From Siphonodentalium dalli (lineage: Eukaryota > Mollusca > Scaphopoda > Gadilida > Siphonodentaliidae): a stretch of DNA of 64,000 nt. Position 1 is the first letter of the stretch. Every line of letters begins with the position of its first letter. The stretch spans positions 211,809,982 through 211,873,981 of the forward strand of contig CP136063.1 in assembly GCA_032622095.1 (NCBI GenBank), written 5' to 3'. The notes below the pieces were generated by a model. The model made no database searches, was not told the DNA's origin, and was given only the letters and a program-made list of their open reading frames with translations. The translations under genes and the position numbers were made by a program. Positions 28,626 through 63,483 of this stretch are shown here, piece by piece.

Positions 28626-28650
28626 ACATTCTGACGATAATTCAGGTGAT
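28626..28650. repeat. Left 25-bp target-site duplication of the LINE
   Basis: Identical to 35547-35571. It runs from 'acattctgacg' to 'ttcaggtgat' and is unit sequence normally present once. Confidence 0.95.
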
Positions 28651-29163
28651 ATATATATATCTTTATTGCCTCCAGTATTGAAGATTTAACAAGACATAGT
28701 ATACATGAATGTAACATAAATACATTTAGCAATCAAGAAGTAATGAAAAGACAGACAAGAGAACAAACTACCGAGGAAAAGAATACCATTCTAATTGTAT
28801 GTACACGAACACGAGCTTACATATCACATCAACAGAAAACACACACCCTCTCGACCACACCCGTACGCATATACAATCTAACACATGGCGCAGACACAAA
28901 CACAACCGTACATACATACGTTATGATGCACTGTCACAACAGCACACCATAAGCAGGTGCATACAATTACAAAAGGAACTCTAGTTGGAGTTGGATTCGC
29001 TTAGAAGAATCTCTCTCCCCAAAGAGTCAGCAAACGCAATGCCCTTGCTCGACAATAGCTCCCCTATAAATGTATGCACCCATTAAGTGGAATAGACTAT
29101 ATGTAGGATGATGTTGCGACAGTGCAAACGCTAGCGCAAGAAAACATATACACACACGTATAC

Positions 29164-29165
29164 AC

Positions 29166-29231
<66 letters not shown>
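29164..29231. repeat. (CA)n microsatellite in the LINE 3' UTR
   Basis: About 30 uninterrupted CA units, with degenerate CA/TA-rich flanks from 29140 to 29265. Confidence 0.95.
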
Positions 29232-29232
<1 letters not shown>

Positions 29233-29409
29233 ATCACACCCTCATATACACATACCTATGCATACATATATATATAATGATTTATTAATTTATTCATGTT
29301 TATTTAATTTGTCGTCTTCGGATTTTATGGACAGGACAGAATGTGGTACATTTAAGTACGACTTATGGTGAACACCCGTAACGTTCAAACTTCAAAGATC
29401 AAAGGTTGT

Positions 29410-32400: not shown

Positions 32401-32982
32401 TCTGGCATCCGATCTCTGTACACTGCCGTTAAAGTCACCCATTACAATGACGTGCCCTATTTCTGTGTACATATCGATAAGGTCTTGCACACGATTTATA
32501 TAGTCTCTATACATTGTGACTGGGTAATTGCTGGAAGGGAGGTACACCTGAAAGATGTATACATACTGTGATTCTGATATCTGTATTTGAATGCCACAAA
32601 TGCGATCGTCGTCGTATTGGATGACTGAAACGGCACTGTCCAAACTAGCATGCCATATAATGGCAACTCCGCCTTTCGGCCTTCCCGCCCTTCTCATTTG
32701 TAACGGTATTCTTTGTGAATAGTCACAAACTATATGGTAGCGATAATTTTGGTGTAATGTGTTGAGAAAATGAGAATTGTGCTCCCAGAGCCAATGCTCA
32801 CTCACTCCAATTACACCAACATTTTCCTGTGCGAGAAGGCTCGAGAGGTAGGAACTGCTACCGAAAATCCCAGTAGCGTTCCATGTGCAAATATTCAACA
32901 ACATTATGAAAATTATCAATAAGTTGCACAAACAGTGGCAAGCGCTAGATTCACCAGCATAATTACGTAATACGTGTAACAT
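29410..32982 (-). CDS. LINE ORF2: APE endonuclease - reverse transcriptase
   Basis: About 1190 residues from the first ATG (32982-32980). The frame is open five codons further upstream, with a stop at 33001-33003. The N-terminal endonuclease starts 'LNICTWNATG' and has 'RPKGGVAIIWH', 'GDFNGS' (about residue 181), 'MIDHIL' and 'SNHRPI' (about 259), the usual catalytic blocks. The RT has 'KAPGPD' (about 523), 'FLDVRKAFDTVW', 'QGTRQGGILSPLL' and the catalytic 'QADDM' box (about 755), where Q-A replaces the commoner Y/F-A. A C-terminal C-T-L-C-x(8)-H-x(4)-C Cys/His motif lies near 1083. It would nick target DNA and copy the element's RNA. Its ORF1 partner lies 77 bp upstream. The clade is not assigned. 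Confidence 0.95.
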   Translation of the reverse strand: MLHVLRNYAGESSACHCLCNLLIIFIMLLNICTWNATGIFGSSSYLSSLLAQENVGVIGVSEHWLWEHNSHFLNTLHQNYRYHIVCDYSQRIPLQMRRAGRPKGGVAIIWHASLDSAVSVIQYDDDRICGIQIQISESQYVYIFQVYLPSSNYPVTMYRDYINRVQDLIDMYTEIGHVIVMGDFNGSVQRSDARNRSLSKLISQKSLVSVNNTDACIGPSATYVPTDGGPGTMIDHILIPEEESYLVQKIEIIDDDSLDVSNHRPIKMVINYPHNNKMGRSENQISACNWKKFTASEDLINAYQTAVQDSLPNFAISDIDDLDSYYDSVVSAINKATTQHIPKKSFKSFAKPYWNDSLESLHCEMRNTRNRWLEEGRPRGIVNISYGNYKEAKRKFRRELRKCNGQYMSAQNEQIDNSAELDQGLFFKLFNNKRSKSIPDSKLFNVNGKIIRNTSDITAAWADYYEQLYSPLQSPTFDSEHLEKIQLLIADISEHKSPSKVDQSLIYEISHRELNNAISNAKKGKAPGPDRICYEHVVHGGDTLLNCTAYMLSMMLKLRHVPKMAKTGLMISLHKGGDKPKNKFDSYRAITLLPIFYKLLEKVLLNRFEINTPYLVKVHPLQNGFQKEISCLMSSYVVSECINYTSEQNSKLYACFLDVRKAFDTVWLDGLLIKLYNRGFRGHIWFILREMLSGFSCFVNYGKSMSREIKILQGTRQGGILSPLLYMLYIDDLLYELEASNYGLRIVSTNCGSPTQADDMTLFSLTNVGLQRLCDICTMYSRLWRFTYNAQKCKTIVFNEKVKNLPVHPRRWKLGDGYVDETDHITHLGITLHRSDFAREFIDCIVNKIRSTYFMLSNAGMYAGGITPQSCETLYRSIIIPKGLYGSELLCGLSETHWSTLEKIHRFCLKHIQGLPVRARTDIVLGMLGIHPIKSLIDARKLNLFGSLCRMPPGKACKEIFVTRLHMYFTGQLENPNSFISDINNTLVEYNLSEHMHQYAHFCSFPLKSEWKRITKTAINDKCVQKWTERTNCDTSFARFREIQPNPTMCHLWRTCRKYPMHKIAFITVGQLIAGSAFSQQNTCTLCCQSHSDIIEHALISCSSPLMHSHRNEMWYQMIDRFGIPLFVWATSLSNSDLVLLHLTHLPRDIFTFLEQVEDTSKFTRFIVLHTNLIWRSYVELSATTHDGLC

Positions 32983-33058
32983 GGTTGAGCGATTCAAGGT
33001 TCAAATGCATATGCAGGCACAAGATTTGGTATTTGATTTGTTGCTATGCGAGTTGATT

Positions 33059-35071
33059 TTATTGTTGTTGTTGTTGTTGTTGTCGTTGGTATTGATGTTT
33101 CCCACGTATATCCTCAGTTGTGTTATGGTAGTTATTGTCACGTCTATCGTCAAAGGAACGTTTGGACAGCCAATGTCTACATAATACGGCAATAGGCCAG
33201 AAACCTTTCCTGAGTACTTCATCAACATCATCCACATGAATATTTATTCTGGCTGACACAGGACCGTCAGCTCTTCCACCTTGCAGGATTCGAACAACTG
33301 AGTGACGCACTTCAAATTCATCCAGATAATCAGAAAGCACATATGCATCGACTTTAACATCTAGGTTACCGAGGAACACACGCGATGTTCTAATAGGGCC
33401 GTCGTTTGACTTTTGATAGAACCTGGAAAAGGATGCGTTGTTCGATGAGTAGTTATTTCGCGAAGGGCGTCTGTTGTGGTTTGAATGATCATCGTTAGCA
33501 CCAGGCTTCTCTGATTGCAGGTGGCTCCGTTTATTGGAGTGTCGAGTGTCTTCTGTGGAATCGTGGTGGGTGTCGTCACAATCATCCACAGGAATATCAC
33601 GGAGGTCATAATTGGATTGTTGGTTGTCAACGTGCGTGTCATGATTAGCGTGACGCGCATAGTTAATAGAGTTATTCTTCTTGTCGAGTGATGTGTTTTT
33701 TGGCTCTTTATCTGTGCGTTTAACGTGAGAAGAACTTGGTGTAGACGTTTCCTGCGGGTTGAATTTTGAAGCACTAGGTATGGGTGAAGATGGGTGCTTG
33801 CTAATACCAACCAGCTGAATGTCTGCATGGCTAACTGACGGCGATTGTGGGTATCCTCTTGTATCAATTGGGTTTTGCGATCGGTTAGCGTGGATTGTGT
33901 TCCATGTCAAGTGGGCGAATTTGTTGAGTTCGCCATATATATGGCCGACGAAACTTTGCATATCAGCTTTGAGGTTCTCTGTGCAGCGATGTTCACAATC
34001 ACAATTGGCATTGTCAGATGTTTTTTGTGAGTTCGATTTGCCCTTCAAGTTGTTCTTGTTGTGTAACTCTTCGAGTGTTTTTATCCTTCCACCAATGGAT
34101 GCTATTGAGCCTTTGGTTGAGTTGACTTGAGTCAGAAACAGTTCACACTTATCCAAGATTGTTGAAATGTCTTGCTTCATTGTTTTCATGTCGGCCTTCA
34201 TTTTAGCAATGCCATTGCATTTATCGCTCTCGATGCGCTCCACCGCAAGGCTGTTTGTATACGATACACGTTCAACTGCTTCAAGTCTGCGTAAAATATC
34301 TTGTTGTGAAACTTCATTGGTGCTAACTCGAGCTGAGAGGTCGGACGAGAAGGTATCAATCTGTGTTTGCATTTTGTCCTTTGACTGCTGTAGAAGGGTT
34401 ATATTCGTTCGAACTCCGATGTCATTGTATATATCCTCTGTGGTGTTAGTTCTCTCGGAATCAGGTTCCATATCGCATGTTTCATCCGGCAGAATTTTAG
34501 GCGTGGAGTTGGCTTTAGACTGGCTCTGATGTTGGCTTCTGGTACGTGATGCACTCAACATATGCACAATATATTCTACCTTCTCTTCAAGTAGACAATA
34601 GAAAAGGTTGTAGATGTCAATTGCCAACTTTTTGGACACAGGCTCAGAGGTTTTAGTCTGAATTCGCCGTTTCAGAATTGCATCTGGAGCTATATTAACA
34701 ATTTTAAGTTTTTTAATTTCACCAAATAATGTCAGTCGCATTGCTTCTAGTTTTGATTCTACTTCCTTTGTCGAGTATAGTAGTTTGGCTACGAACGCGT
34801 CCTTAGGCGTATTGTGTACGAACTCCATCATTAGCATAATGTAGAACTTAATGTCTTTATCGACGCTGCTATCGATTTGCAAACTCGTAGTGAAACAATT
34901 GAATGCGTTCGTAAACATAGTACATGTATTTGGTTCCTGACTTTGAGCGTAGGTGTGGTCAGGTACTTTTGACTCCATATTTGGGGTATCAAGGTTCGAA
35001 GGCACAATCGTGTTGGCGCACATGGAGTCCATATTGAGGATGGCATCTGTTTCAGTCAGAATATTATCCAT
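33059..35071 (-). CDS. LINE ORF1: RNA-binding-type protein
   Basis: 670 residues from the first ATG. The N-terminal half is helical-looking, with heptad-rich and acidic-basic segments (about 200-340) that could form a coiled coil. The middle is Ser/Asn/His/Asp-rich and probably disordered. Near the C-terminus, 'RVFLGNLDVKVDAYVLSDYL' begins an RRM-like fold (about residues 555-630), followed by a basic tail ending in polyglutamine encoded by a CAA run (33062-33080). LINE ORF1 proteins generally bind element RNA. Assignment to that role rests on position, the RRM-like segment and co-orientation with ORF2. No zinc knuckle is seen. Confidence 0.85.
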   Translation of the reverse strand: MDNILTETDAILNMDSMCANTIVPSNLDTPNMESKVPDHTYAQSQEPNTCTMFTNAFNCFTTSLQIDSSVDKDIKFYIMLMMEFVHNTPKDAFVAKLLYSTKEVESKLEAMRLTLFGEIKKLKIVNIAPDAILKRRIQTKTSEPVSKKLAIDIYNLFYCLLEEKVEYIVHMLSASRTRSQHQSQSKANSTPKILPDETCDMEPDSERTNTTEDIYNDIGVRTNITLLQQSKDKMQTQIDTFSSDLSARVSTNEVSQQDILRRLEAVERVSYTNSLAVERIESDKCNGIAKMKADMKTMKQDISTILDKCELFLTQVNSTKGSIASIGGRIKTLEELHNKNNLKGKSNSQKTSDNANCDCEHRCTENLKADMQSFVGHIYGELNKFAHLTWNTIHANRSQNPIDTRGYPQSPSVSHADIQLVGISKHPSSPIPSASKFNPQETSTPSSSHVKRTDKEPKNTSLDKKNNSINYARHANHDTHVDNQQSNYDLRDIPVDDCDDTHHDSTEDTRHSNKRSHLQSEKPGANDDHSNHNRRPSRNNYSSNNASFSRFYQKSNDGPIRTSRVFLGNLDVKVDAYVLSDYLDEFEVRHSVVRILQGGRADGPVSARINIHVDDVDEVLRKGFWPIAVLCRHWLSKRSFDDRRDNNYHNTTEDIRGKHQYQRQQQQQQQ

Positions 35072-35546
35072 AGCTGAGAATTTAATGAGCAATAGGAATA
35101 CTTTCTAGGTGTTTATTGGTCGAGTGCAGACTCATCGACGTCAATTGAGTGGCAATTGACCAATTATACACTGGATACAGTTTATATTGATTGTTTATCA
35201 CACCTATCTGGACAGAGGTGTCGGGTGTGCCATTGTCCAATTTTGGCGAAACAATGACAGACAATTAACATGTACAGGTGGATAAATATGGCGACATTAC
35301 ACAGGGTAGAGGAAGGTCCCAATGACTGAGGGAAAAAAGTTCAACAGTTCAAAAACGTTATACTCAAGTACAATTCACACTGTATCATTTCGAAGATGAT
35401 CCTTATTCGTTGTAGAAATTATCCATCCAACTTTGGAAGCTGACCGCGGTCTTTATCTTGGTATTCATAGCGAAACATGAAGAGCGAGATGAGGAACGTC
35501 CATTCAGTAAATCAGCCCAATTTACTCACCTCAGCCCAATTTACTC
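35072..35546 (-). promoter_or_regulatory. LINE 5' UTR with a 19-bp terminal tandem duplication
   Basis: Starting from the 5' end (35546, minus strand), 'gtgagtaaattgggctgag' is present twice in tandem (plus-strand about 35510-35546). Such 5' reiterations can mark an internal promoter or template jumping. No TATA box was identified. Confidence 0.5.
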
Positions 35547-35571
35547 ACATTCTGACGATAATTCAGGTGAT
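35547..35571. repeat. Right 25-bp target-site duplication of the LINE
   Basis: Identical to 28626-28650. Unit sequence resumes normally after it. Confidence 0.95.
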
Positions 35572-35617: not shown

Positions 35618-35728
35618 TATATATAGGGGTAAATGTGCTGCTCGACATTCAGAACATCCCTAAGAACACATGCACTTTCATTATTCAGAAAACTTTTAGT
35701 CGAGGAACTGTACCGTTAAATATTAGGT
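35618..35728 (+). promoter_or_regulatory. Copy 2 core promoter, exon 1 and GT donor
   Basis: TATATATA is at 35618-35625. A start site about 33 bp downstream, at the A of 'attcAgaac' (35651), is predicted. Exon 1 would be 35651-35726, ending AG|GTAAGT, a consensus donor. Exon 1 has a 9-codon upstream ORF (35670-35699) and a CTCGAC/GTCGAG inverted pair (35641-35646, 35699-35704). The LINE separates this core from the CCAAT box and 10-mer repeats, now about 7 kb upstream. The predicted intron is 35727-36470. Confidence 0.65.
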
Positions 35729-38400: not shown

Positions 38401-38511
38401 TATATATAGGGGTAAATGTGCTGCTCGACATTCAGAACATCCCTAAGAACACATGCACTTTCATTATTCAGAAAACTTTTAGTCGAGGAACTGTACCGTT
38501 AAATATTAGGT
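38401..38511 (+). promoter_or_regulatory. Copy 3 core promoter, exon 1 and GT donor
   Basis: TATATATA is at 38401-38408. Predicted exon 1 is 38434-38509, with donor AG|GTAAGT. The intron 38510-39253 contains AATAAA at 38612-38617 and 38896-38901. The promoter is undisturbed, but the coding exon is broken. Confidence 0.65.
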
Positions 38512-41183: not shown

Positions 41184-41294
41184 TATATATAGGGGTAAAT
41201 GTGCTGCTCGACATTCAGAACATCCCTAAGAACACATGCACTTTCATTATTCAGAAAACTTTTAGTCGAGGAACTGTACCGTTAAATATTAGAT
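41184..41294 (+). promoter_or_regulatory. Copy 4 core promoter and exon 1; donor mutated to AT
   Basis: TATATATA is at 41184-41191 and predicted exon 1 is 41217-41292. The donor reads AG|ATAAGT at 41293-41294. It is not a U12-type AT-AC donor, as ATATCC is absent and the acceptor is AG. Confidence 0.65.
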
Positions 41295-42067
41295 AAGTTT
41301 CTATCTATTGAAATTGAGCTTGGTGCATCGGCATTTATGTAACTAATTTGATCTATTCCCCGAAATATTCTGTATAGATTCATGCCGGGATATAAAATAA
41401 ACTTTAAATTCAGCCAGGGAGTACAGTAATCAAGAGCTTCAACCACAATGTGAGAATTTTATTTTATATAGAACAATTCACGTTAATATGAAAACACTAT
41501 ACAATCCTATACTGGAGATGTTTCCAGACCTCCCGTAACAATTAACAACAACAATATAAATCAACAATTTGTTCTCCTCATCGTGTAATCTGGACATTAA
41601 ATAACAAAGAATATAATTTTGTTTATTGAAAAAAATAACAAAATAATTTGTGGTGTCCCTCTAAAATATCCAAATTCTATGAAATAAATGCATAAACAAT
41701 TCAACATCGAGTATAATAGATATATGTACTAAAAGAATATCCCATTGGGTTACGAAAGTATGTATTAGACAACTATTCACCTGGAGGCGTGTTCAGGAAA
41801 ATGAGCAGATGACAGTACGAATAAAATATAACACATGACGACTGCAGAAGATCGAATCGCATGCAAACGTTCTGAGAAATGTTCAGATATAGTTCAACAA
41901 GTTCAACTAACGCCCTATCTGAGAATTCCATAACGGGCTATGGGAGTTACGAGCCAGTGAATATTTAGTATCGAAATGGTTAAGCAGCGTGTACTGGAGT
42001 GTAAGAATTCAACGTTAACAATTTGTTCAAAGTTTTCATGATTTTATTCTTAATTTCAGGCCACACA

Positions 42068-42544
42068 ATGCAGCGAGTTGGAAACACCCATGTCTACAAA
42101 ACAAGGGACAGCAGTGTCGTCATCTGGAGCATGAACGGAGATGATAGTCTAGAGACACAGTATCTCCGTAACATAGGAAACAAGATACACGACACATCGA
42201 CAGAATTCGCACTAAATGCCACGTTCACGTGCAAAACACCAGGATACGCCAAGACCGGTAACTCTAAACGAGCGTCTCCAAGAGAGCTGCTGTTCAGAAA
42301 CCGACTTGTGACTACGGGAGTGACAAGACATATCTCCACTCCCAAGAACTGCGTGTCCATGCCCAACCTAACTGCTATAAATGACCCAAAGACAACAAAT
42401 GAACCAGAGGCGGTAGAGAAACGCGATGAACATGAGAAGTACGAACCGAAGGAGAGAAAAGCCTTCACAAAGAAACTCAAGAAGTTCTACAAGAGCTGCA
42501 AACTCCAGACTAAACGAGGGCTGCGTATTCTCATCTTCCTGTGA
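42068..42544 (+). CDS. Array gene copy 4: intact 158-aa frame
   Basis: Variants D14, M22, A61, E73, K139 and I156. AATAAA is at 42688-42693. Exon 2 and acceptor (42058-42059) are intact, but the exon-1 donor is AT. Normal splicing is therefore doubtful unless another donor is used. Confidence 0.65.
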   Translation: MQRVGNTHVYKTRDSSVVIWSMNGDDSLETQYLRNIGNKIHDTSTEFALNATFTCKTPGYAKTGNSKRASPRELLFRNRLVTTGVTRHISTPKNCVSMPNLTAINDPKTTNEPEAVEKRDEHEKYEPKERKAFTKKLKKFYKSCKLQTKRGLRILIFL

Positions 42545-42693
42545 GGCACCATTATCCTCTCACAGTGCTGTTTTCTCGTCTCGTGACCATTATTGTACAA
42601 TTATTGTATATAAATAGTATGAAATTGTATATACCAATCCAATTTGTACAGCATTTTATCGTTGTTGAGTTTGTTTAGTTTTGTTTCAATAAA

Positions 42694-43987
42694 TATTATT
42701 TTTGTGTTCAACCCTTTCTGAATTGTCTATCTATTGGAACATACGCGAACCGGGTTCGTAAAAGGTTGGGTGGCTTATTTTGTACTGACCAAGAATATTG
42801 CATAATTATGCTTATTAATCTATGTCTTAAACAGTTGAACTAGTTGTTTACATATATGATATATGACATCTGTTTATAAAGTGTTCGGATGCGATTCTCT
42901 TTGTCAGATAGACAGAAAACATCCACATACATATTCCATACAATTTTACTTTGTTTTCTTTGAACCAAAACAAGGCCAGAAAGTCGAAAATGGTATCACT
43001 CATAAAACAAATTATTGGACCAAACTCAGATTAAATTTGTACACATAGACCACACACATGTCACCTTTAATTCCGAACTTCCGAGCCAAAAAGTGCAAAA
43101 ATAATTTGACTAAAACATATTCGAACTTGACATGTATTTTTACAGAGAAACACACATACCGACTTCAGTTCCGATAAAATAATCCAAAACGTTATGCCGT
43201 GATCGGTCGGAACCCAAAATGTTAACGGACGAACATAAAATATATATACGACCGTTCTTTTCAAACCAGTGGATGTAATTTGGGCTATAAAACTTTCTGA
43301 CCCTTTCTTGTCGATCTCCTTACAATCTGACATTCTTCATATAGGAACTCCTATTGCGTGGCCTACTACTTGGCTTGCATCTAAATAGCTCCCCACCATA
43401 CATGCTCCGCGAATTTGCCATGCTTTGTATTTTGGTACCTTTTGTTACACAGCACCATGGTGTTGTATAAACCCGTGTGTGTGTGGGGGGGGGGGGTGGG
43501 TCCATCTGCAACTGGGGGTTGCATTATTTTATGAGTCGCTATCGCAATAATATATATTTATTTTATTACCCTGTATGTATGCATGTTCCCAGAGTAGATT
43601 CATAACATAGCATATATGCATGCTGGTAATTAAAGGACGGGACTTTTTTGTTGTTGTTGTTTTTTTTAATAATTTGTCACAATGCACGCCTTTCGGTTCT
43701 GCGCCCGATGATAGAAATATTCCTTTTTATCATTACCGCTCGATAATCTAGTAGCTAAACGCATCCTTTGTGCGATGCCGCGAAATTAACAGTGTTCACC
43801 AATCACCAGTTGTACCGTTGTGTGTAATTCGGACATAACACAACTTTAAGCGATGCCGCCATGGTTGTTTTGATTGCAAGTCGGCTTCTCTTCTCAGTCG
43901 GGTTGTTTGTCGTCAAACATTCTGACGATAATTCAGGTGATGGGCGATCAACGGCAATCACTCTGTAAAAACAGACCCCAACCGGGA
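42694..43987. other. Unit spacer 4
   Basis: Standard layout with a 12-G tract (43485-43496). Two substitutions near the CCAAT region ('ccagttgtacc', 'cacaacttt') are not seen in neighbours. Confidence 0.6.
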
Positions 43988-44098
43988 TATATATAGGGGT
44001 AAATGTGCTGCTCGACATTCAGAACATCCCTAAGAACACATGCACTTTCATTATTCAGAAAACTTTTAGTCGAGGAACTGTACCGTTAAATATTAGCT
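43988..44098 (+). promoter_or_regulatory. Copy 5 core promoter and exon 1; donor mutated to CT
   Basis: TATATATA is at 43988-43995 and predicted exon 1 is 44021-44096. The donor is AG|CTAAGT at 44097. Confidence 0.65.
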
Positions 44099-44867
44099 AA
44101 GTTTCTATCTATTGAAATTGAGCTTGGTGCATCGGCATTTATGTAACTAATTTGATCTATTCCCCGAAATATTCTGTATAGATTCATGCCGGGATATAAA
44201 TAAACTTTAATTCAGCCAGGGAGTACAGTAATCAAGAGCTTCAACCACAATGTGAGAATTTTATTTTATATAGAACAATTCACGTTAATAGAAACACTAT
44301 ACAATCCTATACTGGAGATGTTTCCAGACCTCCCGTAACAATTAACAACAACAATATAAATCAACAATTTGTTCTCCTCATCGTGTAATCTGGACCATTA
44401 AATAACAAAGAATATAATTTTGTTATTGAAAAAAATAACAAAATAATTTGTGGTGTCCCTCTAAAATATCCAAATTCTATGAAATAAATGCATAAACAAT
44501 TCAACATCGAGTATAATAGATATATGTACTAAATGAATATCCCATTGGGTTACGAAAGTATGTATTAGACAACTATTCACCTGGAGGCGTGTTCAGGAAA
44601 ATGAGCAGATGACAGTACGAATAAAATATAACACATGACGACTGCAGAAGATCGAATCGCATGCAAACGTTCTGAGAAATGTTCAGATATAGTTCAACAA
44701 GTTCAACTAACGCCCTATCTGAGAATTCCATAACGGGCTATGGGAGTTACGAGCCAGTGAATATTTAGTATCGAAATGGTTAAGCAGCGTGTACTGGAGT
44801 GTAAGAATTCAACGTTAACAATTTGTTCAAAGTTTTCATGATTTTATTCTTAATTTCAGGCCACACA

Positions 44868-45344
44868 ATGCAGCGAGTTGGAAACACCCATGTCTACAAA
44901 ACAAGGAACAGCAGTGTCGTCATCTGGAGCATGAACGGAGATGATAGTCTAGAGACACAGTATCTCCGTAACATAGGAAACAAGATACACGACACATCGA
45001 CAGAATTCGCACTAAATGCCACGTTCACGTGCAAAACACCAGGATACGCCAAGACCGGTAACTCTAAACGAGCGTCTCCAAGAGAGCTGCTGTTCAGAAA
45101 CCGACTTGTGACTACGGGAGTGACAAGACATATCTCCACTCCCAAGAACTGCGTGTCCATGCCCAACCTAACTGCTATAAATGACCCAAAGACAACAAAT
45201 GAACCAGAGGCGGTAGAGAAACGCGATGAACATGAGAAGTACGAACCGAAGGAGAGAAAAGCCTTCACAAAGAAACTCAAGAAGTTCTACAAGAGCTGCA
45301 AACTCCAGACTAAACGAGGGCTGCGTATTCTCATCTTCCTGTGA
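44868..45344 (+). CDS. Array gene copy 5: intact 158-aa frame
   Basis: First copy with N14 ('aaggaacagc'), shared by copies 5-10. The other variants are of the central type. The 3' UTR has GTCACGTGAC at 45378-45387 and AATAAA at 45488-45493. Confidence 0.65.
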   Translation: MQRVGNTHVYKTRNSSVVIWSMNGDDSLETQYLRNIGNKIHDTSTEFALNATFTCKTPGYAKTGNSKRASPRELLFRNRLVTTGVTRHISTPKNCVSMPNLTAINDPKTTNEPEAVEKRDEHEKYEPKERKAFTKKLKKFYKSCKLQTKRGLRILIFL

Positions 45345-45493
45345 GGCACCATTATACTCCCACAGTGCTGTTTTCTCGTCACGTGACCATTATTGTACAA
45401 TTATTGTATATAAATAGTATGAAATTGTATATACCAATCCAAATTGTACAGCATTATATCGTTGTTGAGTTTGTTTAGTTTTGTTTCAATAAA

Positions 45494-46787
45494 TATTATT
45501 TTTGTTTTCAACCCTTTCTGAATTGTCTATCTATTGGAACATACGCGAACCGGGTTCGTAAAAGGTTGGGTGGCTTATTTTGTACTGACCAAGAATATTG
45601 CATAATTATGCTTATTAATCTATGTCTTAAACAGTTGAACTAGTTGTTTACATATATGATATATGACATCTGTTTATAAAGTGTTCGGATGCGATTCTCT
45701 TTGCCAGATAGACAGAAAACATCCACATACATATTCCATACAATTTTACTTTGTTTTCTTTGAACCAAAACAAGGCCAGAAAGTCGAAAATGGTATCACT
45801 CATAAAACAAATTATTGGACCAAACTCAGATTAAATTTGTACACATAGACCACACACATGTCACCTTTAATTCCGAACTTCCGAGCCAAAAAGTGCAAAA
45901 ATAATTTGACTAAAACATATTCGAACTTGACATGTATTTTTACAGAGAAACACACATACCGACTTCAGTTCCGATAAAATAATCCAAAACGTTATGCCGT
46001 GATCGGTCGGAACCCAAAATGTTAACGGACGAACATAAAATATATATACGACCGTTCTTTTCAAACCAGTGGATGTAATTTGGGCTATAAAACTTTCTGA
46101 CCCTTTCTTGTCGATCTCCTTACAATCTGACATTCTTCATATAGGAACTCCTATTGCGTGGCCTACTACTTGGCTTGCATCTAAATAGCTCCCCACCATA
46201 CATGCTCCGCGAATTTGCCATGCTTTGTATTTTGGTACCTTTTGTTACACAGCACCATGGTGTTGTATAAACCCGTGTGTGTGTGGGGGGGGGGGGTGGG
46301 TCCATCTGCAACTGGGGGTTGCATTATTTTATGAGTCGCTATCGCAATAATATATATTTATTTTATTACCCTGTATGTATGCATGTTCCCAGAGTAGATT
46401 CATAACATAGCATATATGCATGCTGGTAATTAAAGGACGGGACTTTTTTGTTGTTGTTGTTTTTTTTAATAATTTGTCACAATGCACGCCTTTCGGTTCT
46501 GCGCCCGATGATAGAAATATTCCTTTTTATCATTACCGCTCGATAATCTAGTAGCTAAACGCATCCTTTGTGCGATGCCGCGAAATTAACAGTGTTCACC
46601 AATCACCAGTGGTACCGTTGTGTGTAATTCGGACATAACACACCTTTAAGCGATGCCGCCATGGTTGTTTTGATTGCAAGTCGGCTTCTCTTCTCAGTCG
46701 GGTTGTTTGTCGTCAAACATTCTGACGATAATTCAGGTGATGGGCGATCAACGGCAATCACTCTGTAAAAACAGACCCCAACCGGGA
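45494..46787. other. Unit spacer 5
   Basis: Standard layout with a 12-G tract at 46285-46296. Confidence 0.6.
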
Positions 46788-46898
46788 TATATATAGGGGT
46801 AAATGTGCTGCTCGACATTCAGAACATCCCTAAGAACACATGCACTTTCATTATTCAGAAAACTTTTAGTCGAGGAACTGTACCGTTAAATATTAGCT
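46788..46898 (+). promoter_or_regulatory. Copy 6 core promoter and exon 1; donor mutated to CT
   Basis: TATATATA is at 46788-46795 and predicted exon 1 is 46821-46896. The donor is AG|CTAAGT at 46897. Confidence 0.65.
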
Positions 46899-47667
46899 AA
46901 GTTTCTATCTATTGAAATTGAGCTTGGTGCATCGGCATTTATGTAACTAATTTGATCTATTCCTCGAAATATTCTGTATAGATTCATGCCGGGATATAAA
47001 TAAACTTTAATTCAGCCAGGGAGTACAGTAATCAAGAGCTTCAACCACAATGTGAGAATTTTATTTTATATAGAACAATTCACGTTAATAGAAACACTAT
47101 ACAATCCTATACTGGAGATGTTTCCAGACCTCCCGTAACAATTAACAACAACAATATAAATCAACAATTTGTTCTCCTCATCGTGTAATCTGGACCATTA
47201 AATAACAAAGAATATAATTTTGTTATTGAAAAAAATAACAAAATAATTTGTGGTGTCCCTCTAAAATATCCAAATTCTATGAAATAAATGCATAAACAAT
47301 TCAACATCGAGTACAATAGATATATGTACTAAATGAATATCCCATTGGGTTACGAAAGTATGTATTAGACAACTATTCACCTGGAGGCGTGTTCAGGAAA
47401 ATGAGCAGATGACAGTACGAATAAAATATAACACATGACGACTGCAGAAGATCGAATCGCATGCAAACGTTCTGAGAAATGTTCAGATATAGTTCAACAA
47501 GTTCAACTAACGCCCTATCTGAGAATTCCATAACGGGCTATGGGAGTTACGAGCCAGTGAATATTTAGTATCGAAATGGTTAAGCAGCGTGTACTGGAGT
47601 GTAAGAATTCAACGTTAACAATTTGTTCAAAGTTTTCATGATTTTATTCTTAATTTCAGGCCACACA

Positions 47668-48144
47668 ATGCAGCGAGTTGGAAACACCCATGTCTACAAA
47701 ACAAGGAACAGCAGTGTCGTCATCTGGAGCATGAACGGAGATGATAGTCTAGAGACACAGTATCTCCGTAACATAGGAAACAAGATACACGACACATCGA
47801 CAGAATTCGCACTAAATGCCACGTTCACGTGCAAAACACCAGGATACGCCAAGACCGGTAACTCTAAACGAGCGTCTCCAAGAGAGCTGCTGTTCAGAAA
47901 CCGACTTGTGACTACGGGAGTGACAAGACATATCTCCACTCCCAAGAACTGCGTGTCCATGCCCAACCTAACTGCTATAAATGACCCAAAGACAACAAAT
48001 GAACCAGAGGCGGTAGAGAAACGCGATGAACATGAGAAGTACGAACCGAAGGAGAGAAAAGCCTTCACAAAGAAACTCAAGAAGTTCTACAAGAGCTGCA
48101 AACTCCAGACTAAACGAGGGCTGCGTATTCTCATCTTCCTGTGA
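47668..48144 (+). CDS. Array gene copy 6: intact 158-aa frame
   Basis: The predicted protein is identical to copy 5. GTCACGTGAC is at 48178-48187 and AATAAA at 48288-48293. Confidence 0.65.
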   Translation: MQRVGNTHVYKTRNSSVVIWSMNGDDSLETQYLRNIGNKIHDTSTEFALNATFTCKTPGYAKTGNSKRASPRELLFRNRLVTTGVTRHISTPKNCVSMPNLTAINDPKTTNEPEAVEKRDEHEKYEPKERKAFTKKLKKFYKSCKLQTKRGLRILIFL

Positions 48145-48293
48145 GGCACCATTATCCTCCCACAGTGCTGTTTTCTCGTCACGTGACCATTATTGTACAA
48201 TTATTGTATATAAATAGTATGAAATTGTATATACCAATCCAAATTGTACAGCATTATATCGTTGTTGAGTTTGTTTAGTTTTGTTTCAATAAA

Positions 48294-49581
48294 TATTATT
48301 TTTGTTTTCAACCCTTTCTGAATTGTCTATCTATTGGAACATACGCGAACCGGGTTCGTAAAAGGTTGGGTGGCTTATTTTGTACTGACCAAGAATATTG
48401 CATAATTATGCTTATTAATCTATGTCTTAAACAGTTGAACTAGTTGTTTACATATATGATATATGACATCTGTTTATAAAGTGTTCGGATGCGATTCTCT
48501 TTGCCAGATAGACAGAAAACATCCACATACATATTCCATACAATTTTACTTTGTTTTCTTTGAACCAAAACAAGGCCAGAAAGTCGAAAATGGTATCACT
48601 CATAAAACAAATTATTGGACCAAACTCAGATTAAATTTGTACACATAGACCACACACATGTCACCTTTAATTCCGAACTTCCGAGCCAAAAAGTGCAAAA
48701 ATAATTTGACTAAAACATATTCGAACTTGACATGTATTTTTACAGAGAAACACACATACCGACTTCAGTTCCGATAAAATAATCCAAAACGTTATGCCGT
48801 GATCGGTCGGAACCCAAAATGTTAACGGACGAACATAAAATATATATACGACCGTTCTTTTCAAACCAGTGGATGTAATTTGGGCTATAAAACTTTCTGA
48901 CCCTTTCTTGTCGATCTCCTTACAATCTGACATTCTTCATATATAGGAACTCCTATTGCGTGGCCTACTACTTGGCTTGCATCTAAATAGCTCCCCACCA
49001 TACATGCTCCGCGAATTTGCCATGCTTTGTATTTTGGTACCTTTTGTTACACAGCACCATGGTGTTGTATAAACCCGTGTGTGTGTGGGGGGGGGGGGGG
49101 GGGGGTGGGTCCATCTGCAACTGGGGGTTGCATTATTTTATGAGTCGCTATCGCAATAATATATATTTATTTTATTACCCTGTATGTATGCATGTTCCCA
49201 GAGTAGATTCATAACATAGCATATATGCATGCTGGACTTTTTTGTTGTTGTTGTTTTTTTTAATAATTTGTCACAATGCACGCCTTTCGGTTCTGCGCCC
49301 GATGATAGAAATATTCCTTTTTATCATTACCGCTCGATAATCTAGTAGCTAAACGCATCCTTTGTGCGATGCCGCGAAATTAACAGTGTTCACCAATCAC
49401 CAGTGGTACCGTTGTGTGTAATTCGGACATAACACACCTTTAAGCGATGCCGCCATGGTTGTTTTGATTGCAAGTCGGCTTCTCTTCTCAGTCGGGTTGT
49501 TTGTCGTCAAACATTCTGACGATAATTCAGGTGATGGGCGATCAACGGCAATCACTCTGTAAAAACAGACCCCAACCGGGA
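48294..49581. other. Unit spacer 6
   Basis: Carries the longest G tract in the array (19 G, 49087-49105) and a 15-bp deletion at about 49235, where other units read 'taattaaaggacggg'. CCAAT and both 'gcgatgccgc' motifs are retained upstream of copy 7. Confidence 0.65.
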
Positions 49582-49692
49582 TATATATAGGGGTAAATGT
49601 GCTGCTCGACATTCAGAACATCCCTAAGAACACATGCACTTTCATTATTCAGAAAACTTTTAGTCGAGGAACTGTACCGTTAAATATTAGGT
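49582..49692 (+). promoter_or_regulatory. Copy 7 core promoter, exon 1 and GT donor
   Basis: TATATATA is at 49582-49589 and predicted exon 1 is 49615-49690. The donor is AG|GTAAGT at 49691, flanked on both sides by copies with CT donors. It is the only copy that combines a normal upstream region, GT donor and intact frame. Confidence 0.7.
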
Positions 49693-50461
49693 AAGTTTCT
49701 ATCTATTGAAATTGAGCTTGGTGCATCGGCATTTATGTAACTAATTTGATCTATTCCCCGAAATATTCTGTATAGATTCATGCCGGGATATAAATAAACT
49801 TTAATTCAGCCAGGGAGTACAGTAATCAAGAGCTTCAACCACAATGTGAGAATTTTATTTTATATAGAACAATTCACGTTAATAGAAACACTATACAATC
49901 CTATACTGGAGATGTTTCCAGACCTCCCGTAACAATTAACAACAACAATATAAATCAACAATTTGTTCTCCTCATCGTGTAATCTGGACCATTAAATAAC
50001 AAAGAATATAATTTTGTTATTGAAAAAAATAACAAAATAATTTGTGGTGTCCCTCTAAAATATCCAAATTCTATGAAATAAATGCATAAACAATTCAACA
50101 TCGAGTATAATAGATATATGTACTAAATGAATATCCCATTGGGTTACGAAAGTATGTATTAGACAACTATTCACCTGGAGGCGTGTTCAGGAAAATGAGC
50201 AGATGACAGTACGAATAAAATATAACACATGACGACTGCAGAAGATCGAATCGCATGCAAACGTTCTGAGAAATGTTCAGATATAGTTCAACAAGTTCAA
50301 CTAACGCCCTATCTGAGAATTCCATAACGGGCTATGGGAGTTACGAGCCAGTGAATATTTAGTATCGAAATGGTTAAGCAGCGTGTACTGGAGTGTAAGA
50401 ATTCAACGTTAACAATTTGTTCAAAGTTTTCATGATTTTATTCTTAATTTCAGGCCACACA

Positions 50462-50938
50462 ATGCAGCGAGTTGGAAACACCCATGTCTACAAAACAAGG
50501 AACAGCAGTGTCGTCATCTGGAGCATGAACGGAGATGATAGTCTAGAGACACAGTATCTCCGTAACATAGGAAACAAGATACACGACACATCGACAGAAT
50601 TCGCACTAAATGCCACGTTCACGTGCAAAACACCAGGATACGCCAAGACCGGTAACTCTAAACGAGCGTCTCCAAGAGAGCTGCTGTTCAGAAACCGACT
50701 TGTGACTACGGGAGTGACAAGACATATCTCCACTCCCAAGAACTGCGTGTCCATGCCCAACCTAACTGCTATAAATGACCCAAAGACAACAAATGAACCA
50801 GAGGCGGTAGAGAAACGCGATGAACATGAGAAGTACGAACCGAAGGAGAGAAAAGCCTTCACAAAGAAACTCAAGAAGTTCTACAAGAGCTGCAAACTCC
50901 AGACTAAACGAGGGCTGCGTATTCTCATCTTCCTGTGA
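50462..50938 (+). CDS. Array gene copy 7: intact 158-aa frame, best candidate for expression
   Basis: The protein is the same as copies 5 and 6 (N14, M22, A61, E73, K139, I156). The predicted intron is 49691-50453 (763 bp) with GT-AG ends. GTCACGTGAC is at 50972-50981 and AATAAA at 51082-51087. Architecture is complete apart from a 15-bp deletion far upstream. Confidence 0.75.
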   Translation: MQRVGNTHVYKTRNSSVVIWSMNGDDSLETQYLRNIGNKIHDTSTEFALNATFTCKTPGYAKTGNSKRASPRELLFRNRLVTTGVTRHISTPKNCVSMPNLTAINDPKTTNEPEAVEKRDEHEKYEPKERKAFTKKLKKFYKSCKLQTKRGLRILIFL

Positions 50939-51087
50939 GGCACCATTATCCTCCCACAGTGCTGTTTTCTCGTCACGTGACCATTATTGTACAATTATTG
51001 TATATAAATAGTATGAAATTGTATATACCAATCCAAATTGTACAGCATTATATCGTTGTTGAGTTTGTTTAGTTTTGTTTCAATAAA

Positions 51088-52386
51088 TATTATTTTTGTT
51101 TTCAACCCTTTCTGAATTGTCTATCTATTGGAACATACGCGAACCGGGTTCGTAAAAGGTTGGGTGGCTTATTTTGTACTGACCAAGAATATTGCATAAT
51201 TATGCTTATTAATCTATGTCTTAAACAGTTGAACTAGTTGTTTACATATATGATATATGACATCTGTTTATAAAGTGTTCGGATGCGATTCTCTTTGCCA
51301 GATAGACAGAAAACATCCACATACATATTCCATACAATTTTACTTTGTTTTCTTTGAACCAAAACAAGGCCAGAAAGTCGAAAATGGTATCACTCATAAA
51401 ACAAATTATTGGACCAAACTCAGATTAAATTTGTACACATAGACCACACACATGTCACCTTTAATTCCGAACTTCCGAGCCAAAAAGTGCAAAAATAATT
51501 TGACTAAAACATATTCGAACTTGACATGTATTTTTACTGAGAAACGCACATACCGACTTCAGTTCCGATAAAATAATCCAAAACGTTATGCCGTGATCGG
51601 TCGGAACCCAAAATGTTAACGGACGAACATAAAATATATATACGACCGTTCTTTTCAAACCAGTGGATGTAATTTGGGCTATAAAACTTTCTGACCCTTT
51701 CTTGTCGATCTCCTTACAATCTGACATTCTTCATATATAGGAACTCCTATTGCGTGGCCTACTACTTGGCTTGCATCTAAATAGCTCCCCACCATACATG
51801 CTCCGCGAATTTGCCATGCTTTGTATTTTGGTACCTTTTGTTACACAGCACCATGGTGTTGTATAAACCCGTGTGTGTGTGTGGGGGGGGGGGGGTGGGT
51901 CCATCTGCAACTGGGGGTTGCATTATTTTATGAGTCGCTATCGCAATAATATATATTTATTTTATTACCCTGTATGTATGCATGTTCCCAGAGTAGATTC
52001 ATAACATAGCATATATGCATGCTGGTAATTAAAGGACGGGACTTTTTTGTTGTTGTTGTTTTTTTTAATAATTTGTCACAATGCACGCCTTTCGGTTCTG
52101 CGCCCGATGATAGAAATATTCCTTTTTATCATTACCGCTCGATAATCTAGTAGCTAAACGCATCCTTTGTGCGATGCCGCGAAATTAACAGTGTTCACCA
52201 ATCACCAGTGGTACCGTTGTGTGTAATTCGGACATAACACACCTTTAAGCGATGCCGCCATGGTTGTTTTGATTGCAAGTCGGCTTCTCTTCTCAGTCGG
52301 GTTGTTTGTCGTCAAACATTCTGACGATAATTCAGGTGATGGGCTATCAACGGCAATCACTCTGTAAAAACAGACCCCAACCGGGA
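51088..52386. other. Unit spacer 7
   Basis: A 13-G tract lies at 51883-51895. From here rightwards units read 'tttttactgagaaac' instead of 'tttttacagagaaac', a variant also seen at the left window edge (about 401). Confidence 0.6.
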
Positions 52387-52497
52387 TATATATAGGGGTA
52401 AATGTGCTGCTCGACATTCAGAACATCCCTAAGAACACATGCACTTTCATTATTCAGAAAACTTTTAGTCGAGGAACTGTACCGTTAAATATTAGCT
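52387..52497 (+). promoter_or_regulatory. Copy 8 core promoter and exon 1; donor mutated to CT
   Basis: TATATATA is at 52387-52394 and predicted exon 1 is 52420-52495. The donor is AG|CTAAGT at 52496. Confidence 0.65.
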
Positions 52498-53266
52498 AAG
52501 TTTCTATCTATTGAAATTGAGCTTGGTGCATCGGCATTTATGTAACTAATTTGATCTATTCCCCGAAATATTCTGTATAGATTCATGCCGGGATATAAAT
52601 AAACTTTAATTCAGCCAGGGAGTACAGTAATCAAGAGCTTCAACCACAATGTGAGAATTTTATTTTATATAGAACAATTCACGTTAATAGAAACACTATA
52701 CAATCCTATACTGGAGATGTTTCCAGACCTCCCGTAACAATTAACAACAACAATATAAATCAACAATTTGTTCTCCTCATCGTGTAATCTGGACCATTAA
52801 ATAACAAAGAATATAATTTTGTTATTGAAAAAAATAACAAAATAATTTGTGGTGTCCCTCTAAAATATCCAAATTCTATGAAATAAATGCATAAACAATT
52901 CAACATCGAGTATAATAGATATATGTACTAAATGAATATCCCATTGGGTTACGAAAGTATGTATTAGACAACTATTCACCTGGAGGCGTGTTCAGGAAAA
53001 TGAGCAGATGACAGTACGAATAAAATATAACACATGACGACTGCAGAAGATCGAATCGCATGCAAACGTTCTGAGAAATGTTCAGATATAGTTCAACAAG
53101 TTCAACTAACGCCCTATCTGAGAATTCCATAACGGGCTATGGGAGTTACGAGCCAGTGAATATTTAGTATCGAAATGGTTAAGCAGCGTGTACTGGAGTG
53201 TAAGAATTCAACGTTAACAATTTGTTCAAAGTTTTCATGATTTTATTCTTAATTTCAGGCCACACA

Positions 53267-53742
53267 ATGCAGCGAGTTGGAAACACCCATGTCTACAAAA
53301 CAAGGAACAGCAGTGTCGTCATCTGGAGCATGAACGGAGATGATAGTCTAGAGACACAGTATCTCCGTAACATAGGAAACAAGATACACGACACATCGAC
53401 AGAATTCGCACTAAATGCCACGTTCACGTGCAAAACACCAGGATACGCCAAGACCGGTAACTCTAAACGAGCGTCTCCAAGAGAGCTGCTGTTCAGAAAC
53501 GACTTGTGACTACGGGAGTGACAAGACATATCTCCACTCCCAAGAACTGCGTGTCCATGCCCAACCTAACTGCTATAAATGACCCAAAGACAACAAATGA
53601 ACCAGAGGCGGTAGAGAAACGCGATGCACATGAGAAGTACGAACCGAAGGAGAGAAAAGCCTTCACAAAGAAACTCAAGAAGTTCTACAAGAGCTGCAAA
53701 CTCCAGACTAAACGAGGGCTGCGTATTCTCATCTTCCTGTGA
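53267..53742 (+). pseudogene. Array gene copy 8, frameshifted (-1 C)
   Basis: One C is missing at about 53500 ('agaaacgactt' for 'agaaaccgactt'), so the frame ends after 80 residues. It also has E121 changed to A. GTCACGTGAC is at 53776-53785 and AATAAA at 53886-53891. Identical lesions occur in copy 9. Confidence 0.9.
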
Positions 53743-53891
53743 GGCACCATTATCCTCCCACAGTGCTGTTTTCTCGTCACGTGACCATTATTGTACAATT
53801 ATTGTATATAAATAGTATGAAATTGTATATACCAATCCAAATTGTACAGCATTATATCGTTGTTGAGTTTGTTTAGTTTTGTTTCAATAAA

Positions 53892-55197
53892 TATTATTTT
53901 TGTTTTCAACCCTTTCTGAATTGTCTATCTATTGGAACATACGCGAACCGGGTTCGTAAAAGGTTGGGTGGCTTATTTTGTACTGACCAAGAATATTGCA
54001 TAATTATGCTTATTAATCTATGTCTTAAACAGTTGAACTAGTTGTTTACATATATGATATATGACATCTGTTTATAAAGTGTTCGGATGCGATTCTCATT
54101 GCCAGATAGACAGAAAACATCCACATACATATTCCATACAATTTTACTTTGTTTTCTTTGAACCAAAACAAGGCCAGAAAGTCGAAAATGGTATCACTCA
54201 TAAAACAAATTATTGGACCAAACTCAGATTAAATTTGTACACATAGACCACACACATGTCACCTTTAATTCCGAACTTCCGAGCCAAAAAGTGCAAAAAT
54301 AATTTGACTAAAACATATTCGAACTTGACATGTATTTTTACTGAGAAACACACATACCGACTTCAGTTCCGATAAAATAATCCAAAACGTTATGCCGTGA
54401 TCGGTCGGAACCCAAAATGTTAACGGACGAACATAAAATATATATACGACCGTTCTTTTCAAACCAGTGGATGTAATTTGGGCTATAAAACTTTCTGACC
54501 CTTTCTTGTCGATCTCCTTACAATCTGACATTCTTCATATATAGGAACTCCTATTGCGTGGCCTACTACTTGGCTTGCATCTAAATAGCTCCCCACCATA
54601 CATGCTCCGCGAATTTGCCACGCTTTGTATTTTGGTACCTTTTGTTACACAGCACCATGGTGTTGTATAAACCCGTGTGTGTGTGGGGTGGGGGGGGGGG
54701 GGGGGGTGGGTCCATCTGCAACTGGGGGTTGCATTATTTTATGAGTCGCTATCGCAATAATATATATTTATTTTATTACCCTGTATGTATGCATGTTCCC
54801 AGAGTAGATTCATAACATAGCATATATGCATGCTGGTAATTAAAGGACGGGACTTTTTTGTTGTTGTTTTTTTTTTAAATAATTTGTCACAATGCACGCC
54901 TTTCGGTTCTGCGCCCGATGATAGAAATATTCCTTTTTATCATTACCGCTCGATAATCTAGTAGCTAAACGCATCCTTTGTGCGATGCCGCGAAATTAAC
55001 AGTGTTCACCAATCACCAGTGGTACCGTTGTGTGTAATTCGGACATAACACACCTTTAAGCGATGCCGCCATGATTGTTTTGATTGCAAGTCGGCTTCTC
55101 TTCTCAGTCGGGTTGTTTGTCGTCAAACATTCTGACGATAATTCAGGTGATGGGCGATCAACGGCAATCACTCTGTAAAAACAGACCCCAACCGGGA
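53892..55197. other. Unit spacer 8
   Basis: Interrupted G tract (GGGG-T then 17 G, 54685-54706). The sequence 'tctcattgccag' near 54095 is shared only with spacer 9, marking the 8/9 duplication. Confidence 0.65.
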
Positions 55198-55308
55198 TAT
55201 ATATAGGGGTAAATGTGCTGCTCGACATTCAGAACATCCCTAAGAACACATGCACTTTCATTATTCAGAAAACTTTTAGTCGAGGAACTGTACTGTTAAA
55301 TATTAGCT
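55198..55308 (+). promoter_or_regulatory. Copy 9 core promoter and exon 1; donor mutated to CT
   Basis: TATATATA is at 55198-55205 and predicted exon 1 is 55231-55306, with a substitution ('tactgtt'). The donor is AG|CTAAGT at 55307. Confidence 0.65.
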
Positions 55309-56077
55309 AAGTTTCTATCTATTGAAATTGAGCTTGGTGCATCGGCATTTATGTAACTAATTTGATCTATTCCCCGAAATATTCTGTATAGATTCATGCC
55401 GGGATATAAATAAACTTTAATTCAGCCAGGGAGTACAGTAATCAAGAGCTTCAACCACAATGTGAGAATTTTATTTTATATAGAACAATTCACGTTAATA
55501 GAAACACTATACAATCCTATACTGGAGATGTTTCCAGACCTCCCGTAACAATTAACAACAACAATATAAATCAACAATTTGTTCTCCTCATCGTGTAATC
55601 TGGACCATTAAATAACAAAGAATATAATTTTGTTATTGAAAAAAATAACAAAATAATTTGTGGTGTCCCTCTAAAATATCCAAATTCTATGAAATAAATG
55701 CATAAACAATTCAACATCGAGTATAATAGATATATGTACTAAATGAATATCCCATTGGGTTACGAAAGTATGTATTAGACAACTATTCACCTGGAGGCGT
55801 GTTCAGGAAAATGAGCAGATGACAGTACGAATAAAATATAACACATGACGACTGCAGAAGATCGAATCGCATGCAAACGTTCTGAGAAATGTTCAGATAT
55901 AGTTCAACAAGTTCAACTAACGCCCTATCTGAGAATTCCATAACGGGCTATGGGAGTTACGAGCCAGTGAATATTTAGTATCGAAATGGTTAAGCAGCGT
56001 GTACTGGAGTGTAAGAATTCAACGTTAACAATTTGTTCAAAGTTTTCATGATTTAATTCTTAATTTCAGGCCACACA

Positions 56078-56553
56078 ATGCAGCGAGTTGGAAACACCCA
56101 TGTCTACAAAACAAGGAACAGCAGTGTCGTCATCTGGAGCATGAACGGAGATGATAGTCTAGAGACACAGTATCTCCGTAACATAGGAAACAAGATACAC
56201 GACACATCGACAGAATTCGCACTAAATGCCACGTTCACGTGCAAAACACCAGGATACGCCAAGACCGGTAACTCTAAACGAGCGTCTCCAAGAGAGCTGC
56301 TGTTCAGAAACGACTTGTGACTACGGGAGTGACAAGACATATCTCCACTCCCAAGAACTGCGTGTCCATGCCCAACCTAACTGCTATAAATGACCCAAAG
56401 ACAACAAATGAACCAGAGGCGGTAGAGAAACGCGATGCACATGAGAAGTACGAACCGAAGGAGAGAAAAGCCTTCACAAAGAAACTCAAGAAGTTCTACA
56501 AGAGCTGCAAACTCCAGACTAAACGAGGGCTGCGTATTCTCATCTTCCTGTGA
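56078..56553 (+). pseudogene. Array gene copy 9, frameshifted (-1 C)
   Basis: Same C deletion (about 56311) and E121A change as copy 8. In addition 'gatttaattc' just before the acceptor replaces 'gattttattc'. GTCACGTGAC is at 56587-56596 and AATAAA at 56697-56702. Confidence 0.9.
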
Positions 56554-56702
56554 GGCACCATTATCCTCCCACAGTGCTGTTTTCTCGTCACGTGACCATT
56601 ATTGTACAATTATTGTATATAAATAGTATGAAATTGTATATACCAATCCAAATTGTACAGCATTATATCGTTGTTGAGTTTGTTTAGTTTTGTTTCAATA
56701 AA

Positions 56703-57998
56703 TATTATTTTTGTTTTCAACCCTTTCTGAATTGTCTATCTATTGGAACATACGCGAACCGGGTTCGTAAAAGGTTGGGTGGCTTATTTTGTACTGACCA
56801 AGAATATTGCATAATTATGCTTATTAATCTATGTCTTAAACAGTTGAACTAGTTGTTTACATATATGATATATGACATCTGTTTATAAAGTGTTCGGATG
56901 CGATTCTCATTGCCAGATAGACAGAAAACATCCACATACATATTCCATACAATTTTACTTTGTTTTCTTTGAACCAAAACAAGGCCAGAAAGTCGAAAAT
57001 GGTATCACTCATAAAACAAATTATTGGACCAAACTCAGATTAAATTTGTACACATAGACCACACACATGTCACCTTTAATTCCGAACTTCCGAGCCAAAA
57101 AGTGCAAAAATAATTTGACTAAAACATATTCGAACTTGACATGTATTTTTACTGAGAAACATACATACCGACTTCAGTTCCGATAAAATAATCCAAAACG
57201 TTATGCCGTGATCGGTCGGAACCCAAAATGTTAACGGACGAACATAAAATATATATACGACCGTTCTTTTCAAACCAGTGGATGTAATTTGGGCTATAAA
57301 ACTTTCTGACCCTTTCTTGTCGATCTCCTTACAATCTGACATTCTTCATATATAGGAACTCCTATTGCGTGGCCTACTACTTGGCTTGCATCTAAATAGC
57401 TCCCCACCATACATGCTCCGCGAATTTGCCACGCTTTGTATTTTGGTACCTTTTGTTACACAGCACCATGGTGTTGTATAAACCCGTGTGTGTGTGGGGG
57501 GGGGGGGTGGGTCCATCTGCAACTGGGGGTTGCATTATTTTATGAGTCGCTATCGCAATAATATATATTTATTTTATTACCCTGTATGTATGCATGTTCC
57601 CAGAGTAGATTCATAACATAGCATATATGCATGCTGGTAATTAAAGGACGGGACTTTTTTGTTGTTGTTGTTTTTTTTAATAATTTGTCACAATGCACGC
57701 CTTTCGGTTCTGCGCCCGATGATAGAAATATTCCTTTTTATCATTACCGCTCGATAATCTAGTAGCTAAACGCATCCTTTGTGCGATGCCGCGAAATTAA
57801 CAGTGTTCACCAATCACCAGTGGTACCGTTGTGTGTAATTCGGACATAACACACCTTTAAGCGATGCCGCCATGGTTGTTTTGATTGCAAGTCGGCTTCT
57901 CTTCTCAGTCGGGTTGTTTGTCGTCAAACATTCTGACGATAATTCAGGTGATGGGCGATCAACGGCAATCACTCTGTAAAAACAGACCCCAACCGGGA
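56703..57998. other. Unit spacer 9
   Basis: A 12-G tract lies at 57496-57507. Shares 'tctcattgccag' with spacer 8. Confidence 0.6.
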
Positions 57999-58109
57999 TA
58001 TATATAGGGGTAAATGTGCTGCTCGACATTCAGAACATCCCTAAGAACACATGCACTTTCATTATTCAGAAAACTTTTAGTCGAGGAACTGTACCGTTAA
58101 ATATTAGCT
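57999..58109 (+). promoter_or_regulatory. Copy 10 core promoter and exon 1; donor mutated to CT
   Basis: TATATATA is at 57999-58006 and predicted exon 1 is 58032-58107. The donor is AG|CTAAGT at 58108. Confidence 0.65.
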
Positions 58110-60114: not shown

Positions 60115-60227
60115 TATATATATAGGGGTAAATGTGCTGCTCGACATTCAGAACATCCCTAAGAACACATGCACTTTCATTATTCAGAAAACTTTTAGTC
60201 GAGGAACTGTACCGTTAAATATTAGGT
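60115..60227 (+). promoter_or_regulatory. Copy 11 core promoter (minimal), exon 1 and GT donor
   Basis: The TATA run is extended by one TA (60115-60124). Predicted exon 1 is 60150-60225 and the donor AG|GTAAGT is at 60226. The upstream region is deleted. Confidence 0.65.
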
Positions 60228-63372: not shown

Positions 63373-63483
63373 TATATATAGGGGTAAATGTGCTGCTCGA
63401 CATTCAGAACATCCCTAAGAACACAAGCACTTTCATTATTCAGAAAACTTTTAGTCGAGGAACTGTACCGTTAAATATTAGGT
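63373..63483 (+). promoter_or_regulatory. Copy 12 core promoter, exon 1 and GT donor
   Basis: TATATATA is at 63373-63380. Predicted exon 1 is 63406-63481 and the donor AG|GTAAGT is at 63482. The upstream ORF start is lost here (acaAgcac for acaTgcac). The coding exon lies beyond the window. Confidence 0.65.

Follow-up and report, generated by a model that had tools for sequence, protein, structure and literature searches.

A non-canonical first-exon splice donor shared by eight copies of a tandem gene array in the scaphopod Siphonodentalium dalli

Copies of a tandemly repeated gene in the scaphopod mollusc Siphonodentalium dalli differ at the first base of their intron, which raises the question of whether the altered copies are genes in decay, genes regulated in another way or artefacts of assembly. 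The stretch analyzed, referred to as the window, comprises 64,000 nucleotides of the forward strand of contig CP136063.1 (assembly GCA_032622095.1, positions 211,809,982 to 211,873,981), and the contig bearing it is called C3 below. The repeated unit has a period of about 2.8 kb in the window, with an insertion in copy 11 and no 3′ spacer in copy 10, and is made up of a TATA promoter, a 5′ untranslated exon some 76 nt long, an intron of roughly 0.75 kb and one coding exon, which specifies a protein of 158 amino acids (aa). The start of exon 1 is placed by inference at the A lying 76 bases before the donor, and the TATA box is found at donor −109 in copy 2. A preliminary description of the window had reported that the GT of the exon 1 donor is lost in six of eleven copies, and reading the base at each site bears this out. 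The pattern AGNTAAGT matches in register at all 11 claimed exon-1 copies, and the donor calls are right throughout, with GT in copies 2, 3, 7, 11 and 12, CT in copies 5, 6, 8, 9 and 10, and AT in copy 4. We give a probability of about 0.8 to the reading that the array undergoes birth-and-death pseudogenization by donor loss, an ordinary decay of surplus copies. Under this reading, a small two-exon gene would have been amplified recently as a tandem array and would now be decaying by birth and death.

Beyond the window, 35 exon-1 copies were counted within the 263 kb of C3 that were examined, 26 of them with GT, eight with CT and one with AT, and the nine non-GT copies are confined to C3:211,851,274-211,882,595. 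The suggestion that most copies are silenced is therefore true of the window only, as the normal donor is kept in the greater part of the array. A genome-wide search for exon 1 with an exact pattern gave 34 sites in the 2.23-Gb genome, all on C3 in the array, and missed window copy 9, where one upstream base is changed; diverged exon-1 copies are covered within the examined stretches only. Matches to the 158-aa product at the protein level span C3:211,804,284-212,054,786 (about 250 kb), with additional pieces on C5. In the alignment of the 12 window units, 80 columns show base variation and donor +1 is the sole column flagged with three bases. Array-wide, position −56 relative to the donor likewise has three alleles, and the flagged columns at −117 and −113 are an artefact of a misaligned insertion in copy 4. 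Position −56 is the T of an upstream ATG in exon 1, located at −57 in the window copies, that opens a frame of 9 codons closing within the exon. This ATG is lost by a T to A change in window copy 12 and three array copies beyond. In the two most distant copies the T is replaced by G, and the outgroup paralogue described next lacks the ATG.

The structure of the gene and the ancestral state of the donor are both addressed by a diverged paralogue that lies immediately left of the window; its donor is at C3:211,808,752 and its coding sequence (CDS) at 211,809,310. Identity to the array is 95.6% for the promoter and 88.5% for exon 1 and ranges over 71-94% across the CDS, and the alignment of the intron contains 307 gap columns. 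Because this outgroup retains the TATA box, exon 1, the donor AG/GTAAAT (the slash marks the exon end), the acceptor before the ATG and an open frame while the intron aligns poorly, the exon 1, intron and coding exon drawn in the preliminary description are judged correct, including the exon 1 end, and GT is very probably the ancestral donor. The outgroup frame is open across 157 codons despite indels, the frames of both paralogues remaining open over in-frame indels, and the ratio of nonsynonymous to synonymous substitution rates (dN/dS) between the outgroup and copy 7 is 0.52 (p 0.015). Conservation of the promoter, exon 1, donor and acceptor together with this dN/dS is what marks a real gene, and a canonical donor is present both in sister copies and in the outgroup. 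From the window alone the reality of the frame is only suggestive, with frames of at least 158 codons occurring in 6 of 1000 random controls and a codon-position asymmetry as large in 6 of 239 background windows; it was the comparison with the outgroup that settled the point. No site in the genome matched a pattern in which exon 1 runs directly into exon 2, as it would in a processed copy. The copy on C5 was considered as a processed copy and rejected, as it includes sequence of the intron and the 10 kb retrieved contain no match to exon 1. The outgroup copy itself (C3:211808422-211810710, including window positions 1-521) is a mosaic relative to the array, with 97.5% identity in the spacer and 95.6% in the promoter but 71-76% midway through the CDS, a pattern that suggests exchange of the flanks or fast evolution of the mid-CDS.

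The CT donor probably arose once. When the donor base is masked and a tree is built from 27 of the 35 copies, CT requires 2 changes, compared to a mean of 7.1 for shuffled labels, and the eight CT copies form one group, which also contains GT copy 7. A single G-to-C change at intron +1 in one copy would have been multiplied by tandem duplication and further by the duplication of a whole block, 14.2 kb or more in length. This block is seen as 14,253 aligned bases with 99.67% identity over which copies 8 to 12 match the next five exon-1 copies, the length being a lower bound as the left edge of the match was set by the query. The duplication re-creates CT copies 8, 9 and 10 at C3:211,876,993, 211,879,796 and 211,882,595. 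The earlier statement that the CT form has spread is thus supported, since the adjacent repeat of the block holding three of the eight CT copies supplies three others. The units also recombine, with the donor column and others failing four-gamete tests.

Contrary to the earlier claim of intact coding exons, the frame is broken in copies 3, 8 and 9. In copy 3 an extra A at 39325 shifts the frame and leads to a stop after 25 codons, and in copies 8 and 9 a common one-base deletion results in a stop after 80 codons; the frames of the corresponding two copies in the adjacent repeat of the block are full. The eight open window copies differ at 9 nonsynonymous and 2 synonymous sites (pN/pS 1.38), and so give no sign of constraint among the array copies. 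No visible frame decay appears to have followed the loss of the donor so far, which would fit a recent event. Among 34 exon-1 copies of the array, 15 have GT together with a full frame, a caution against equating gene copies with working genes.

Several points weigh against birth-and-death decay by donor loss. The loss of splicing and expression in the CT copies is deduced from sequence. A single origin of CT accounts for the GT of copy 7 only if a reversal or recombination is also assumed, and the tree is weakly supported, with 12 of 23 inner branches open. Copy 7 would have regained or kept GT via conversion, recombination or reversion; over the initial 1.5 kb of the unit the donor base is all that separates it from copy 5, and reversion, short conversion and recombination all fit alike because there is no other informative site nearby. 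There is also no excess of broken frames among the altered copies, the full 158-codon frame being present in 7 of 9 non-GT and 15 of 25 GT copies (34 array copies, p 0.44). Finally, a CT-AG junction has been reported among the aberrant transcripts of a mutated human gene (PMC6825843), indicating that CT is not absolutely unusable; the same paper counts only six known CT-AG pairs supported by expressed sequence tags.

Errors of the assembly consensus are a separate explanation for the non-GT bases, and one that bears on copy 4 in particular. All nine private single-base indels of copy 4 fall within 41085-41622, a noisy stretch that also holds the A responsible for its AT donor (41293). In the array-wide 5′ alignment, copy 4 has 10 private substitution columns and 4 private indel columns, compared to 6 private indel columns in copy 2 and 3 in the most diverged copy. 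Copy 3 contains three extra A within 230 bases (39097, 39102 and 39325). On these grounds the AT of copy 4 is slightly likelier to be a consensus error than a true second mutation, and the earlier claim of two independent changes becomes insecure; the AT copy would represent either a second hit or such an error. For the array as a whole the explanation is very unlikely, since seven copies of the window show at most one private indel event, the G run aside. Because C is common to eight copies in otherwise clean sequence, a consensus error is an unlikely source of CT, which is taken as real. Consensus noise in near-identical repeats can in this way mimic a second independent mutation.

The copies bearing CT should be unable to use the exon 1 donor, and intron retention or use of a weaker donor within the intron would be expected, leaving them silent or poorly expressed. 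The most plausible fallback is the AAT/GTGAGA site at +155 (Table 1), which scores 6.8 bits compared to 10.2 for the main donor, with a hand-written weight matrix whose scores rank sites only. It is found at +155 or +157 in 11 of 11 window copies and there is no variable column from +152 to +160 throughout the array, which would also suit the view that CT copies are active with an altered 5′ leader, through this donor or through a start at a TATA-like box in the intron, their regulation being changed and not silenced. A TATAWAW match at +98 and TACAGTAATC at +127 in all five copies inspected, as well as the persistence of CT copies with open frames, speak for such a leader. However, the +155 donor and the TATA-like box at +98 are both absent from the outgroup, where they fall in the alignment gap, and would not be old conserved parts of the gene; TATAWAW occurs 161 times on the plus strand of the window, and an extended leader would contain further ATGs. 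Fallback splicing is possible, and continued activity with an altered leader appears unlikely. It is highly doubtful that the CT sub-array was kept and block-copied as a dosage or regulatory switch, yielding a different mRNA with a long leader rich in upstream ATGs and a low or conditional protein output beside the GT copies. Reading of the non-canonical donors by a variant U1 in this species is exceedingly improbable. Copy 4 does read A/GATAAGT, the form named for species with GA-AG introns (PMC7072748), but 42 of 42 U1 genes read start with ATACTTACCTGG and are canonical at position 8, the base opposite intron +1, and a genome search allowing any base at that position returned 294 matches to U1 5′ ends with C and none with A, G or T, more diverged U1 genes being missed by the pattern. 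The U1 5′ ends occur in regular tandem arrays at C4:17138999-17158644 and 20644098-20703441 with a spacing of 701 bp, and in another at C1:103842444-103881159 with a spacing of about 2.15 kb.

Decay by donor loss has precedents. CSH-L (hPL-L) of the primate growth hormone cluster is regarded as a pseudogene owing to a mutated splice donor, so that, as here, one copy in a tandem cluster has a donor mutation and its sister copies are normal (PMC9956162); that case concerns one copy per locus in another gene family, whereas here one donor allele is present in eight copies via tandem and block duplication. A presumptive human MUP pseudogene likewise has its splice donor destroyed, by a G>A change (PMC2533699), and differs in being a single gene without an array, with another change in another gene. 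The A/GATAAGT of copy 4 resembles the donor form of the GA-AG introns of Eurytemora affinis and Oikopleura dioica (PMC7072748), but in the present case no variant U1 was found and the form is limited to one copy, in a noisy stretch. The making of a pseudogene in a tandem cluster by donor loss is thus already known, and the multiplication of one donor allele to eight copies is what differs here. In this young tandem array, segmental duplication has multiplied a splice allele with probable loss of function, and an outgroup fixes the ancestral state, which makes the case a clean example of its kind.

Table 1. Array copies, first exons and other features of the window (positions are those of the window; slash, exon end)
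Feature	Position	Strand	Donor	Coding sequence and remarks
Copy 1	26549..28625	+		lacks unit positions 1-775, hence no array-type promoter or exon 1; CDS 26776-27249 open, 158 aa
LINE insertion	28626..35571	-		between copy 1 and copy 2 promoter; flanked by 25-bp direct duplication (28626-28650, 35547-35571)
LINE open reading frame	29410-32982	-		endonuclease and reverse transcriptase
LINE open reading frame	33059-35071	-		
Copy 2 exon 1	35651..35726	+	AG/GTAAGT at 35727 (G)	CDS 36479-36952 open
Copy 3 exon 1	38434..38509	+	AG/GT at 38510	CDS from 39262 frameshifted
Copy 4 exon 1	41217..41292	+	AG/AT at 41293	CDS 42068-42541 open
Copy 5 exon 1	44021..44096	+	AG/CT at 44097	CDS 44868-45341 open
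Weaker cryptic donor	44252 (copy 5)	+	AAT/GTGAGA	at +155 in ten window copies, +157 in copy 4
Copy 6 exon 1	46821..46896	+	AG/CT at 46897	CDS 47668-48141 open
Copy 7 exon 1	49615..49690	+	AG/GT at 49691	CDS 50462-50935 open
Copy 8 exon 1	52420..52495	+	AG/CT at 52496	CDS from 53267 frameshifted
Copy 9 exon 1	55231..55306	+	AG/CT at 55307	CDS from 56078, one-base deletion common to copy 8
Copy 10 exon 1	58032..58107	+	AG/CT at 58108	CDS 58878-59351 open; copy 11 follows after 2118 bases (3′ spacer deleted)
Copy 11 exon 1	60150..60225	+	AG/GT at 60226	5′ half diverged; CDS 60998-61471 open
Copy 12 exon 1	63406..63481	+	AG/GT at 63482	copy cut by window end; frame beyond stops after 50 codons

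The 158-aa protein matched no family in Pfam, PHROGs or NCBIfam, and no relatives were confirmed on viral contigs. Its single match in the PDB is a synthetic nanobody (E 1.3) and was treated as chance. The AlphaFold model has a mean predicted local distance difference test score (pLDDT) of 39.5. Rfam at gathering scores and ARAGORN detected nothing within the window.

The sequence preceding copy 1 (25800-26548) is unrelated to the array promoter and exon 1, and this copy has a strong donor-like GAG/GTGAGC at 26221 (11.3 bits with the same weight matrix), perhaps belonging to another first exon. The insertion that follows copy 1, a long interspersed nuclear element (LINE), has its end about 70 bases upstream of the TATA box of copy 2. 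A minus-strand frame of 88 aa is repeated in the spacers of many units (27775-28041, 37478-37744 and equivalents), and an ACAT microsatellite of 700 bp with 98% matches occupies window positions 22952-23652.

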